64,000 bases of DNA, from positions 1 to 64,000 of the forward strand of contig JAODBK010000067.1 in assembly GCA_025463925.1 (NCBI GenBank), written 5' to 3'. Under the pieces are notes generated by a model. That model searched no databases, was not told the DNA's origin, and saw only the letters and a program-made list of their open reading frames with translations. This DNA is from Acidimicrobiales bacterium. Lineage in GTDB: Bacteria; Actinomycetota; Acidimicrobiia; Acidimicrobiales; AC-14. The translations under genes and the position numbers were made by a program. Of the stretch, positions 23,273-59,426 are shown piece by piece; position 1 is the stretch's first letter; every line of letters starts with the position of its first letter.

Positions 23273-23782
23273 TCAGTCTGCCCGGCGGGACGAGCGATCG
23301 GGCACCGGGTGCGGTCGCTGTTCCGACAAACGACGCCAGAGGCGGCGCAGTGTCCGGCGGTCGGTGGGCGACGTCGCCGCGAGGAGCGTCCGTCGAAGCA
23401 CGTCGTTGTGGGTGTGCCGGGCGGCGAGCAGCGCGCGGTCACCTTCCTTGGTGAGGACGGTGAACCACTTGCGCCGGTCACCGGGGTCGACCTCGCGCCG
23501 AACCAGGCCGTCGCGCTCGAGGCGAGTCACCAGATGCGTCGTGCCGGCCGGGCTGAGCAGCGCTCGACCGGCGAGGTCTGACATGCCGAGCCGCTGATCC
23601 GGCGCGTTGAACAGGGTGATCAGCACGTCGAACTCGGTGACGGCCAAGCCGTGGGCCCGCCGCAGCTCGGTGTCGAGGCTCGCCAGGACCGAGCGGTGCA
23701 GCAGCATCAACGCGCCCCATGACTCCGACTCCTCGGAATCGAGGAACTCGTGTTGGGGTCTTGACTTCGCCACGGTTGCCAC
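23273..23782 (-). CDS. MarR-family transcriptional regulator
   Basis: The 169-residue winged-helix protein shows the MarR core: an N-terminal dimerisation helix, then VTEFDVLITLFNAPDQRLGMSDLAGRALLSPAGTTHLVTRLERDGLVRREVDPGDRRKW with the wing DPGDRR. The start is a GTG at 23782; a second in-frame GTG three codons later is an alternative. It is divergent from a small barrel protein across a short AT-rich region holding an inverted repeat, the usual place for a MarR operator, and it precedes the dehydrogenase it may control. Confidence 0.9.
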   Translation of the reverse strand: MATVAKSRPQHEFLDSEESESWGALMLLHRSVLASLDTELRRAHGLAVTEFDVLITLFNAPDQRLGMSDLAGRALLSPAGTTHLVTRLERDGLVRREVDPGDRRKWFTVLTKEGDRALLAARHTHNDVLRRTLLAATSPTDRRTLRRLWRRLSEQRPHPVPDRSSRRAD

Positions 23783-41564: not shown

Positions 41565-41849
41565 TCAGCCGCCGGAGACCGCCGGCAAGACCGCCACGTC
41601 GGCGCCCTCGGGCACGACGGTTCGCAGATCGTCGAGGTCGCGAGCGTTGTCGGCGCCGACGAAGACGTTGACGTGACGCCGCATGGCGCCGGCCTCGTCG
41701 CGCAGCCGGCGGCCGACGGCGGGGTGCGCGGCCGCGAGGGCGTCGATGACCGCGCCGACGGTGACGGGCGGCGGCAGGTCGAGGTCGACGGCCGGCGCGC
41801 CGCCGGCGTGCGGCCGCAGCGCCGATGCCAGCCGGACGACGACCTTCAG
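41565..41849 (-). CDS. MoaD/ThiS-like ubiquitin-fold protein, apparent CTG start
   Basis: The 94-residue protein has the MoaD pattern: a first strand KVVVRLASALRPHAGG, VTVGAVIDALAAAHPAVGRRL, HVNVFVGADNARDLDDL and the terminal LPAVSGG ending in the Gly-Gly used for sulfur transfer. The canonical N-terminus coincides with a CTG at 41849 that overlaps the TGA of the upstream gene (CTGA). A GTG at 41873 would add 8 residues and is the alternative. I recall such proteins beside BNR-repeat genes in other actinobacteria. The substrate pathway is unknown. Confidence 0.8.
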   Translation of the reverse strand: MKVVVRLASALRPHAGGAPAVDLDLPPPVTVGAVIDALAAAHPAVGRRLRDEAGAMRRHVNVFVGADNARDLDDLRTVVPEGADVAVLPAVSGG

Positions 41850-42961
41850 CGAAGCACCGCCGTCTTGACGCACAGGACGGGCGGCAGGTGGCGGGCCAGC
41901 TCGCGCCACGACGCGCCGGCGTCGGGGGACGCGAACACGTCGCCGGTGCGGGTGCCGACGTAGAGGCCGGCGGGGTCGAACGCGTCGGCGGCAAAGCCGT
42001 CGCGCAGCACCGTGAGCCAGGCGTTCTCCTGCGGCAGGCCCTGCTCGAGCGCCTGCCAGGTGTCGCCGCCGTCGGTCGTGCGGTACACGCGGAGCCGGGC
42101 GTCGGGCGTGCACCGGAACTCGTCGGACGTCAGCGGCAGCACGTACGCCGTCCCCGGATGGTTGGGGTCGGCGACCACGGGGAAGCCGAACGTCGACGGC
42201 AGGTCGTCGGCGCCGATCTCGCGCCACTGCCCGCCGAAGTCGTCGGAGCGGTAGACGCCCCAATGGTGCTGGAGGAACAGCGTGTCCGGCTCGGACGGGT
42301 GCCGGTCGACCTTGTGCACGCACTGTCCGAACTCGGGCGTCGGCTCGGGCAGGAACGGCGCGCGGATGCCGGCGTTGGCCGCCTCCCAGGTCGTCCCGTC
42401 GAGGGTCCGGTAGAAGCCGGCAGCCGAGATGGCCACGCCGAGGCGCGGGCCGCCGTCCGGATCCGGGATGACCGTGTGGAGGCACAGGCCGCCGCCGCCC
42501 GGCTGCCATTGCCGGCGGTGCTCGTGGTTCCAGAGGGTCTCGTCCAGCCGGAACGACACGCCACCGTCGTCCGAGCGGAACAGCGCCGCCGGCTCCACAC
42601 CGGCGTACACCACGTCCGGTTGGCCCTCGCCCGCCGGTTGCAGCTGCCAGACATGGGCGACGGCCGCGCCGGTGTGATCGGGGAAGCCGAGCGTCTCGGG
42701 CTCGGGCTCCACCCACGTCGCGCCCAGGTCGTCGGACCGGTAGACGGACGGCCCCCAGTGCGAGCTGGTGGCACCGACGAGCAGGCGGTTGCGCGCATGC
42801 CGGGTGTCCAGCGCGGCGGCGTAGATCTCCTCGCCTCGAAACCACGGACCGGCCTGGGCCCAACGGGCGCGGTCCGGCCCGGCCGTCAGCGCGAACAGGC
42901 CCTTGGTCGTGCCGACCAGCACCACGACATCCCCCGCGGTCGCGTCGATCTGTCCGGTCAT
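41846..42961 (-). CDS. BNR/VPS10-type beta-propeller (exo-alpha-sialidase-like) protein
   Basis: The 371-residue protein is built of BNR-like blades with Asp-box variants (VYRSDDLGATWVEP, LFRSDDGGVSFRL, VYRSDDFGGQWREI, VYRTTDGGDTWQAL, VFASPDAGASWREL). There is no signal peptide, so a cytoplasmic role is likely, and the catalytic sialidase arginine triad is not apparent. Annotation as a sialidase would be by fold only. The ATG at 42961 sits 7 bases after a TAACAT box that overlaps the stop of the upstream PGRP gene. It is coupled to the MoaD-like gene. Confidence 0.8.
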   Translation of the reverse strand: MTGQIDATAGDVVVLVGTTKGLFALTAGPDRARWAQAGPWFRGEEIYAAALDTRHARNRLLVGATSSHWGPSVYRSDDLGATWVEPEPETLGFPDHTGAAVAHVWQLQPAGEGQPDVVYAGVEPAALFRSDDGGVSFRLDETLWNHEHRRQWQPGGGGLCLHTVIPDPDGGPRLGVAISAAGFYRTLDGTTWEAANAGIRAPFLPEPTPEFGQCVHKVDRHPSEPDTLFLQHHWGVYRSDDFGGQWREIGADDLPSTFGFPVVADPNHPGTAYVLPLTSDEFRCTPDARLRVYRTTDGGDTWQALEQGLPQENAWLTVLRDGFAADAFDPAGLYVGTRTGDVFASPDAGASWRELARHLPPVLCVKTAVLR

Positions 42962-58220: not shown

Positions 58221-58226
58221 TAGCTT
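58221..58226 (+). promoter_or_regulatory. Candidate leaderless -10 box (TAGCTT) of the DUF3499 gene
   Basis: TAGCTT lies 9 bases before the ATG at 58236 and is identical to the boxes before 48314 and 49783. Confidence 0.45.
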
Positions 58227-58235
58227 GGGCGCACC

Positions 58236-58475
58236 ATGGACTCCCACCGCTCGTGCGACAAGCCCGCGTGCGGCGCGCCGGCGGCCGCCACGCTGAGCTA
58301 CCACTACACCAGCCGCACCGCCTGGATCGACGACCTCGTCGACGACAAGGAGCCCTCGAGCCACGACTTGTGCGCCCCGCACGCCGACGGATTGCGCGTG
58401 CCCATCGGATGGGCGCGCGAGGACCGGCGGCCGCGCGTGGTCCGCTCGTTGTTCCAGTCGCCCATCGCCAGCTGA
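58236..58475 (+). CDS. DUF3499-family zinc-finger-like protein
   Basis: The 79-residue protein has the DUF3499 pattern: CDKPACGAPAAATLSYHY near the N-terminus with two cysteines (Cys7, Cys12), a middle acidic loop, HDLCAPHADGLRVPIGW and a basic C-terminus. The Cys/His residues suggest a zinc site. Its function is unknown, but it neighbours pmm and envelope genes in other actinobacteria (mycobacterial Rv3258c). Its TGA overlaps the CTG start proposed for the next gene. Confidence 0.85.
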   Translation: MDSHRSCDKPACGAPAAATLSYHYTSRTAWIDDLVDDKEPSSHDLCAPHADGLRVPIGWAREDRRPRVVRSLFQSPIAS

Positions 58476-59212
58476 CCGACCACCCACCGCCGACCGAGTC
58501 ATCGTCCCGGCCGGGGCAACCGCGCTGGGGCCTCGGCGACGTCGGCCTGGCCGTCGTCGTCTCGCTCGTCGCGTCGTCGATCGCCTTCGGCATCTGGACG
58601 GCGTTCAACCCCGGCGACACCCATTCGATCGGCTACTTGGCGACGGGCCTGGTCGGCCTCTGGGCGGGCTTCGTCGGCGTCCCGATCTGGGCGGCGCGCC
58701 GCAAGGGCAGCGGCCGCGTGGCCGAGGACTTCGGCCTGCGCATCCGCCCGGTCGACGCCGTCATCGGGGCCGCCGGCGCGCTCGCGGCGACCCTCGCCGA
58801 GTCCGTCGTGGTGGCGATCATCCGGGGGATCACCGGCCCGGTGAAGGTCAGCCAGGACGTCGGCAACACGATCAAGCAGGCCCACGGCGCCGAGCTCGCG
58901 GCGGCGTTCGTCCTCACCGTCCTGGCGGTGCCGATCGTCGAGGAGCTGTTCTTCCGCGGGCTGGTGCTGCGGGCCCTCGAGCGCCGGTTTCCGGCGGCCG
59001 CCGCGATCGTCGTCTCGGCGGTGGTCTTCGGGTTCGCCCACTACCAGGGCGACGTGCCGGCCAAGTCGGCGTGGACGGTGGTCGCCGGCCTGTTCGTGGT
59101 CGGGATCGTGCTGGGCGTCCTGGCCCATCGGATCGGGCGGCTCGGGCCCGGGATCGTCGCCCACGCCCTCTTCAACCTGCTGGCCTTCATCTCGCTGGTG
59201 CATTCGCGGTAA
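58472..59212 (+). CDS. CPBP-family intramembrane metalloprotease, apparent CTG start
   Basis: The 246-residue membrane protein has about seven spans and the CPBP (CAAX protease-like) motifs: EELFFRG (Glu157, Glu158), a downstream FGFAHY and HALFNLL. It would cleave prenylated or bacteriocin-like peptides, or release membrane-bound substrates. No ATG, GTG or TTG fits between the upstream gene and the first span; the CTG at 58472 overlaps the DUF3499 TGA (CTGA). An in-frame ATG at 58409 would need a 67-base overlap and has no binding site. Confidence 0.83.
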   Translation: MTDHPPPTESSSRPGQPRWGLGDVGLAVVVSLVASSIAFGIWTAFNPGDTHSIGYLATGLVGLWAGFVGVPIWAARRKGSGRVAEDFGLRIRPVDAVIGAAGALAATLAESVVVAIIRGITGPVKVSQDVGNTIKQAHGAELAAAFVLTVLAVPIVEELFFRGLVLRALERRFPAAAAIVVSAVVFGFAHYQGDVPAKSAWTVVAGLFVVGIVLGVLAHRIGRLGPGIVAHALFNLLAFISLVHSR

Positions 59213-59249: not shown

Positions 59250-59426
59250 ATGACGTGCCCGCGTTGCCGGAAGTCTCGGATGGTCGAGATCGGTCTGACC
59301 GTGAACGAGCGCCAGGTGATGATGCACTCGTGCTCACGCTGCGACACCCGTTGGTGGGACAGCGACGGCGAGCTGCTGCCGCTGGCCAACCTGCTCGAGC
59401 TGGTCGGGCCCGCCCCGCGCGGCTGA
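59250..59426 (+). CDS. 58-residue zinc-ribbon microprotein
   Basis: A short frame from ATG 59250 to TGA 59426 encodes MTCPRCRKSRMVEIGLTVNE and onward, with two C-X2-C knuckles (CPRC and CSRC) about 25 residues apart and a following WW pair and Leu-rich helix. This is a classic four-cysteine zinc ribbon. Similar tiny proteins are common in actinobacteria; no role can be assigned. It follows the CPBP gene by 37 bases. A weak AGG lies before the ATG. Confidence 0.72.
   Translation: MTCPRCRKSRMVEIGLTVNERQVMMHSCSRCDTRWWDSDGELLPLANLLELVGPAPRG

Follow-up and report, generated by a model that had tools for sequence, protein, structure and literature searches.

CTG as a candidate start codon at stop-restart junctions in Acidimicrobiales, from a DUF3499-CPBP protease gene pair

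Where does translation of a CPBP intramembrane protease begin when its reading frame offers no standard start codon close to the stop of the preceding gene? The question is raised by a gene pair in an Acidimicrobiales genome (assembly GCA_025463925.1), located in the first 64,000 nucleotides of contig JAODBK010000067.1, the stretch that was analysed and is here called the window. The upstream gene, DUF3499 (58236..58475, plus strand; 79 aa; PF12005, E 5.6e-16, 59.7 bits against a cut-off of 25), ends with TGA at 58473-58475. The protease, of the type II CAAX/Rce1-like kind (PF02517, E 1.8e-22, 79.8 bits against a cut-off of 22.4), is encoded on the same strand up to a stop at 59210-59212, and would comprise 246 aa (58472..59212) if read from the proposed CTG start codon at 58472..58474. 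As the initial annotation claimed, this CTG lies over the DUF3499 stop in frame with the protease, in a 4-nt CTGA overlap (58472-58475) for which both frames were confirmed. We propose, with a probability of roughly 0.77, that the protease starts at this CTG by restart of translation after DUF3499, and that the same CTG variant serves the genes for a MoaD-like protein, HemW, an SDR dehydrogenase and FluC and recurs in the order.

Upstream of the junction, the nearest standard starts (ATG, GTG or TTG) in the protease frame are an ATG at -63 from the CTG (58409..58411) and a GTG at -102, with others further up. Downstream, a standard codon (TTG) first appears at +165, past the first hydrophobic span, which Kyte-Doolittle analysis places at residues 19-46 of the CTG model. 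This agrees with the initial statement that, apart from the ATG, no standard start lies between the DUF3499 gene and the first span. No Shine-Dalgarno-like string occurs at -20 to -4 from the CTG. A TANNNT box is also absent from -45 to the conserved block, so the protease CTG does not have the -10 box 5-9 nt before the start that is expected of leaderless initiation. The overlapping codon is CTG and not the ATG or GTG of the known 4-nt overlap class, which makes the junction a variant of that class and not a strict member. A -10-like box, TAGCTT (58221..58226, plus strand), is found 9 nt 5' of the DUF3499 ATG, in the same spacing class as the TANNNT boxes of protease relatives, and likely serves the DUF3499-CPBP unit as a leaderless promoter.

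The in-frame ATG at 58409..58411 might be selected by a standard gene finder, and the protease would then overlap DUF3499 by 67 nt and gain 21 residues at its N-terminus. This is the nearest upstream standard start and NTG codons occupy the same slot in many relatives, but the codon lies over the DUF3499 Gly-Trp codons GGA TGG, and GGN TGG forces NTGG in the overlapping frame. Gly-Trp occurs within the last 35 residues of DUF3499 in 130 of 138 loci (described below), where the forced codon is CTG in 74, TTG in 28, GTG in 18 and ATG in 10. We therefore judge the ATG to be a by-product of the conserved Gly-Trp, with no sign of its retention as a start. In-frame stops at -54 (L026), -61 (L126) and -55 (L204) make the slot unusable in those relatives, and no Shine-Dalgarno-like sequence is visible before the ATG in the window. 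Homologues matching the longer frame, which the initial annotation held to count against the CTG, were looked for, and the start candidates of most relatives lie at or behind the DUF3499 stop. A start at the ATG is therefore unlikely.

The comparison drew on searches for the protease in 99 genomes (including this one), for DUF3499 in 397 genomes of the order and in 32 genomes of one family. DUF3499 was matched in 268 of the 397, and the loci were drawn among the best-scoring matches listed (30 plus 96 fetched), which biases the set towards strong DUF3499 matches. After exclusion of 22 loci without DUF3499 and 24 without an adjacent protease, the 185 loci read yielded 139, and removal of a duplicate (L094) left 138; none of L032-L034, the three examined among the 39 loci L032-L070, has DUF3499. 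Near-duplicates from one genus are kept in this set and the p values treat loci as unrelated, and most of the relatives' genomes are draft assemblies in which single-base errors are possible.

A protease locus was called startless if ATG, GTG and TTG were all absent between -30, or the in-frame stop, and profile position 5. Ten of the 138 loci are startless by this rule: the window, L007, L026, L030, L126, L143, L189, L196, L200 and L204. A CTG is present at -10 to +25 in eight of the ten, against 27 of the 128 others (p = 2.7e-4), and codon rates would lead to an expectation of 4.5 of ten (P = 0.024). The cleanest case is L026 (genome G077), in which an in-frame stop at -54 is followed by a CTGA junction and the CTG at 0 is the sole start up to the conserved block; no usable ATG, GTG or TTG exists there, and the same is true of HemW in the genome under study (see below). 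The nearest upstream standard start in L007 is no closer than -60. In L126, the junction CTGTCTGA is the CTG form of a known 8-nt overlap, and in L200 and L204 an ORF of 12 and 8 codons, respectively, opens at the DUF3499 stop (GTGA and ATGA) and closes in a second overlap, a CTGA with its CTG in frame with the protease, possibly a two-step restart relay. Five further loci were rejected as startless cases. In L088 and L193 a loose motif had placed the anchor too early, and the profile position gives GTG at +39 and +12, respectively; L198 and L201 have an ATG at +39 at a conserved Trp position, and L215 has a TTG at +24.

Frame-compatible TGA overlaps occur in 30 of the 138 loci. In 12 of them a standard NTG sits exactly there (ATGA, GTGA or TTGA), and the other 18 are CTGA, with a standard start 6-39 nt on in 15 and none in three. 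Within the protease set alone, a missing start is not significantly associated with an in-frame CTGA (3/18 versus 7/120, p = 0.12). Given that the DUF3499 and protease frames overlap, the protease frame could in principle be reached by frameshifting from DUF3499 to give a fusion. We regard this as extremely improbable, as no slippery run was seen at the junction and the two genes of relatives occur in all three relative frames, often tens of bases apart.

Protease loci with a standard start behind the junction point to a second route of expression. Among these 116 loci, 50 have a TANNNT box 5-9 nt before the start, compared with 2/116 at random positions. The box is missing at this spacing from all 12 standard NTGA protease restarts, and none of the ten startless loci has one before a CTG (50/116 versus 0/22 for standard restarts and startless loci together, p = 1.9e-5). 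A Shine-Dalgarno-like string precedes the start in one of 15 protease restarts. Expression of the protease thus likely follows one of two routes, a leaderless promoter of its own or restart after DUF3499, and this promoter seems to have been gained or lost repeatedly among relatives. The CTG cases would belong to the restart mode.

Two sites with other codons were noted in passing. An ECF sigma factor gene of this genome (L277:13801-13816, contig C19) has no ATG, GTG or TTG at its start, and in the sequence GTAGCCTcttcgcATC an in-frame ATC follows a TAGCCT box at a distance of 6 nt. Ahead of the protease in L196, an ATA follows TAACCT at the same distance. Both are possible leaderless starts, at ATC and ATA respectively.

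The second CTGA junction in the window concerns a small MoaD/ThiS-family protein (41565..41849, minus strand; 94 aa from CTG; PF02597, E 4.5e-8, 34 bits against a cut-off of 22.5), which scores 59.4 bits against the SAMP1 model NF041918, just under the cut-off of 60. Its CTG (41847..41849, minus strand) forms a CTGA overlap with the end of a 371-aa gene (41846..42961, minus strand) that we judged from its sequence to encode a BNR/sialidase-like repeat protein. The initial annotation likened the protease overlap to that of this gene. The overlap (CTG 41849-41847) was borne out, and an in-frame GTG at -24, to which that annotation does not refer, is also present. That GTG, which arises from a conserved CVK of the upstream protein, is present in six of seven orthologues and is replaced by CTG in L230. 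The orthologues (seven loci from six families, the window included, with at least 68% identity and matched at E <= 1e-25 in a search of 397 genomes) all keep the overlap to the base, as CTGA in five, TTGA in L256 and GTGA in L257. Of 25 other MoaD-family loci, 23 have their ATG or GTG start at that residue, give or take one codon, and none has CTG; L237 and L241 have no ATG or GTG at the aligned residue. A CTG thus stands at this position in 5/7 junction orthologues versus 0/23 of the others (p = 1.5e-4).

HemW offers a case in which start codons are missing on both sides. The HemW gene of this genome (L283; TIGR00539, 241.4 bits against 205.4) has a CTGA junction, and its frame lacks ATG, GTG and TTG between the in-frame stop at -279 and position +111, which is past the CxxxCxxC motif. 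We compared 28 loci with an N-terminus, this genome included, after dropping L314 and L319 from 30 for a missing N-terminus. Six of these (L283, L312, L311, L300, L292 and L303) have no standard start within 130 nt. In L312, which has a CTGA junction, the open frame extends for 393 nt ahead of the conserved block and contains no standard start; L311, from the single-contig genome G011, has a CTGA junction and no standard start for 579 nt, the first being GTG at -591 and -639. Standard starts are lacking within 130 nt in 3/3 loci with a true in-frame CTGA, compared with 3/25 of the others (p = 0.006). Elsewhere the HemW overlap takes the forms GTGA (L296, L297), ATGA (L301) and TTGA (L308). L300 was rejected as a CTGA case: its CTGA belongs to a spurious ORF, and the real upstream stop is likely a TAG 14 nt before the CTG. 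This CTG, the sole NTG start of L300, is 7 nt behind a TAGCTT box and may be a leaderless CTG start and not a restart.

Two more genes of this genome have the same arrangement. The SDR dehydrogenase L272 has a CTGA junction, with the next starts at GTG -99 and GTG +39; judging by the sequence, the latter falls within the first strand of the nucleotide-binding fold. In the orthologue L274 the junction is TTGA and follows the same tail of the upstream protein, although the upstream frame of that locus stays open over no more than 76 codons. For FluC (PF02537; L285), also with a CTGA junction, the next starts are GTG at -108 and +75, and no second CTGA case without another start was found among its relatives. 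Before the CTG of MoaD, SDR, FluC and HemW of this genome, no -10 box is present. Over all 19 candidates (eight protease, five MoaD, four HemW, SDR and FluC) the one CTG behind such a box is that of HemW L300, and the 18 cases without it suggest stop-restart coupling.

An erroneous C call at the junction, or an indel, would mimic such cases, and G000 consists of 119 contigs and most relatives are drafts. We consider assembly error very improbable as a general explanation, given that five genes of this genome show the CTGA pattern and that it recurs in other genomes, among them G011 (L311), which is a single contig. Slightly more weight, if still little, goes to the idea that another non-standard start or a mixture is used, with start choice after termination so loose that the codon hardly matters. 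This would account for startless orthologues without CTG: L143 and L196 have no nearby CTG, with ATT at +10 and ATA at +13, respectively, and HemW L292 and L303 have no NTG start at all, the former having an ACG and the latter an ATC close behind the stop. L143, L292 and L303 may represent other near-cognate starts or assembly errors. Against a loose choice, the window has no in-frame ATT, ATC or ATA near the protease junction, and an NTG is kept at the exact MoaD position in 7/7 orthologues. The CTG restart remains the reading that we prefer.

The CTGA tetramer is not itself informative. It is below shuffle expectation in the window (239 observed, mean 346 expected), but C precedes TGA in 21 of 31 genes whose next gene is on the opposite strand (274-kb sample of the genome). 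A C before TGA is thus background, and we discarded CTGA counts as evidence. In a 550-kb sample (the window plus 30 stretches; 505 genes from our own codon-usage caller, 318 same-strand pairs), frame-compatible open junctions were GTGA in 51 cases, CTGA in 40, ATGA in 27 and TTGA in eight. When a standard start is sought between -33 and a point 18 nt past the estimated coding start, 35 of the 40 CTGA junctions have one and five do not (protease, SDR, HemW, FluC and an ABC protein). The initial annotation had called for a genome-wide count of NTGA junctions; in this sample, the startless excess at CTGA is marginal (5/40 versus 8/192 in pairs without such a junction, p = 0.053). The ABC protein (L270) is not a clean case, having a plausible GTG at +21. 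Two further candidates were rejected, the methyltransferase L258, explained by GTG at -21, and a dehydrogenase at window position 23276 on the minus strand, explained by GTG at +9. CTGA junctions are hence at chance level, and the evidence consists of the missing starts and the comparative data. The initial argument that two such junctions in one window imply tolerance of CTG fails for this reason, and tolerance as such is upheld by the comparisons for MoaD, HemW and the protease.

We infer from these patterns that translation begins at the CUG, by a restart mechanism, and that the codon is read as methionine. After terminating DUF3499 at the UGA (58473-58475), the ribosome would move back by a single base and begin again at the overlapping CUG, using initiator fMet-tRNA and no Shine-Dalgarno sequence, to give a protease with the N-terminus Met-Thr-Asp-His-Pro. 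The initiation machinery appears ordinary. IF3 is encoded in this genome, with a match of its C-terminal domain over 85 of 86 positions. Its gene, infC (L350, about 1240-1300, contig C35), has no standard start before the conserved N-terminus, and an ATA 9 nt behind AAGGAG is its likely start. The E. coli infC gene has a rare AUU start that acts as a sensor of IF3. A rare start would be common to both genes, and infC here is led by a Shine-Dalgarno sequence, with no stop-restart junction; by analogy, this points to intact start-codon discrimination. Three tRNA genes with the anticodon CAT were detected among 40 of the 47 tRNA places scanned with ARAGORN (3 of the 40 gave no call), and one of them is presumably the ordinary initiator tRNA, by its initiator features. 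A tolerance of CTG specific to restart would thus be likelier than a general loss of fidelity. If restart does escape discrimination against CUG, the coupled junctions could be a natural test of whether a restarting ribosome skips the start-codon check by IF3.

CTG start codons in bacteria are allowed by NCBI translation table 11. The candidates described here would share with known bacterial CTG starts a Leu codon read by initiator tRNA, and differ in lying mainly on or just behind an upstream stop, with a -10 box at leaderless spacing in 1/19. In the portions of the literature available to us, 4-nt overlaps are given as ATGA/GTGA, or as RTGA in mycobacteria (PMC6728339, PMC10666635, PMC4633059). 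The present junctions resemble these termination-reinitiation pairs in that a same-strand start and TGA share four bases, and differ in that N is C and in that 14 of 15 protease restarts have no Shine-Dalgarno-like string. The L126 junction matches the 8-nt overlap ATGNNTGA (PMC10666635, as far as that text was available), with CTG replacing ATG. For mycobacteria, the accessible parts of one study report that CTG is not enriched as a leadered start (0.03%) and is poor as a leaderless one, that ATT is enriched and that CTG starts are scarce (PMC4633059), and those of another report no CTG enrichment at initiation sites of M. tuberculosis (PMC9094748). The terms CUG, CTG, UUG, non-AUG, NUGA and near-cognate are absent from the available text of a 2025 review of translational coupling (PMC12548453). 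At the level of titles and abstracts, no description of CTGA restart junctions in this group was found. CTG starts and stop-start overlaps are each known, and by these sources their recurrent combination here is new.

A start rule that depends on the route of initiation could hold in the order, an idea that we offer tentatively and at somewhat less than even odds. Leaderless and Shine-Dalgarno-led starts would be mostly ATG, GTG or TTG, and a ribosome that has just terminated would take any NTG at the stop, so that CTG would be regular at restart junctions and be missed by gene finders limited to ATG, GTG and TTG. The CTG of HemW L300 behind a leaderless-type -10 box speaks against a strict restart-only form of this rule. 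CTG starts would occur in about 1% of genes (5/505) if the 550-kb sample is typical, and such genes are probably misannotated in this group. Gene finders with the standard codons would cut HemW behind its catalytic motif, add 8 residues to MoaD and 21 to the protease, and give wrong overlap counts for a large group sequenced mostly as drafts.

On the 3' side of the protease gene, the window also contains a 58-aa ORF with CxxC pairs (59250-59426, plus strand; MTCPRCRKSRMVEIG...CSRCDTRWW), the product of which is likely a zinc-ribbon protein.
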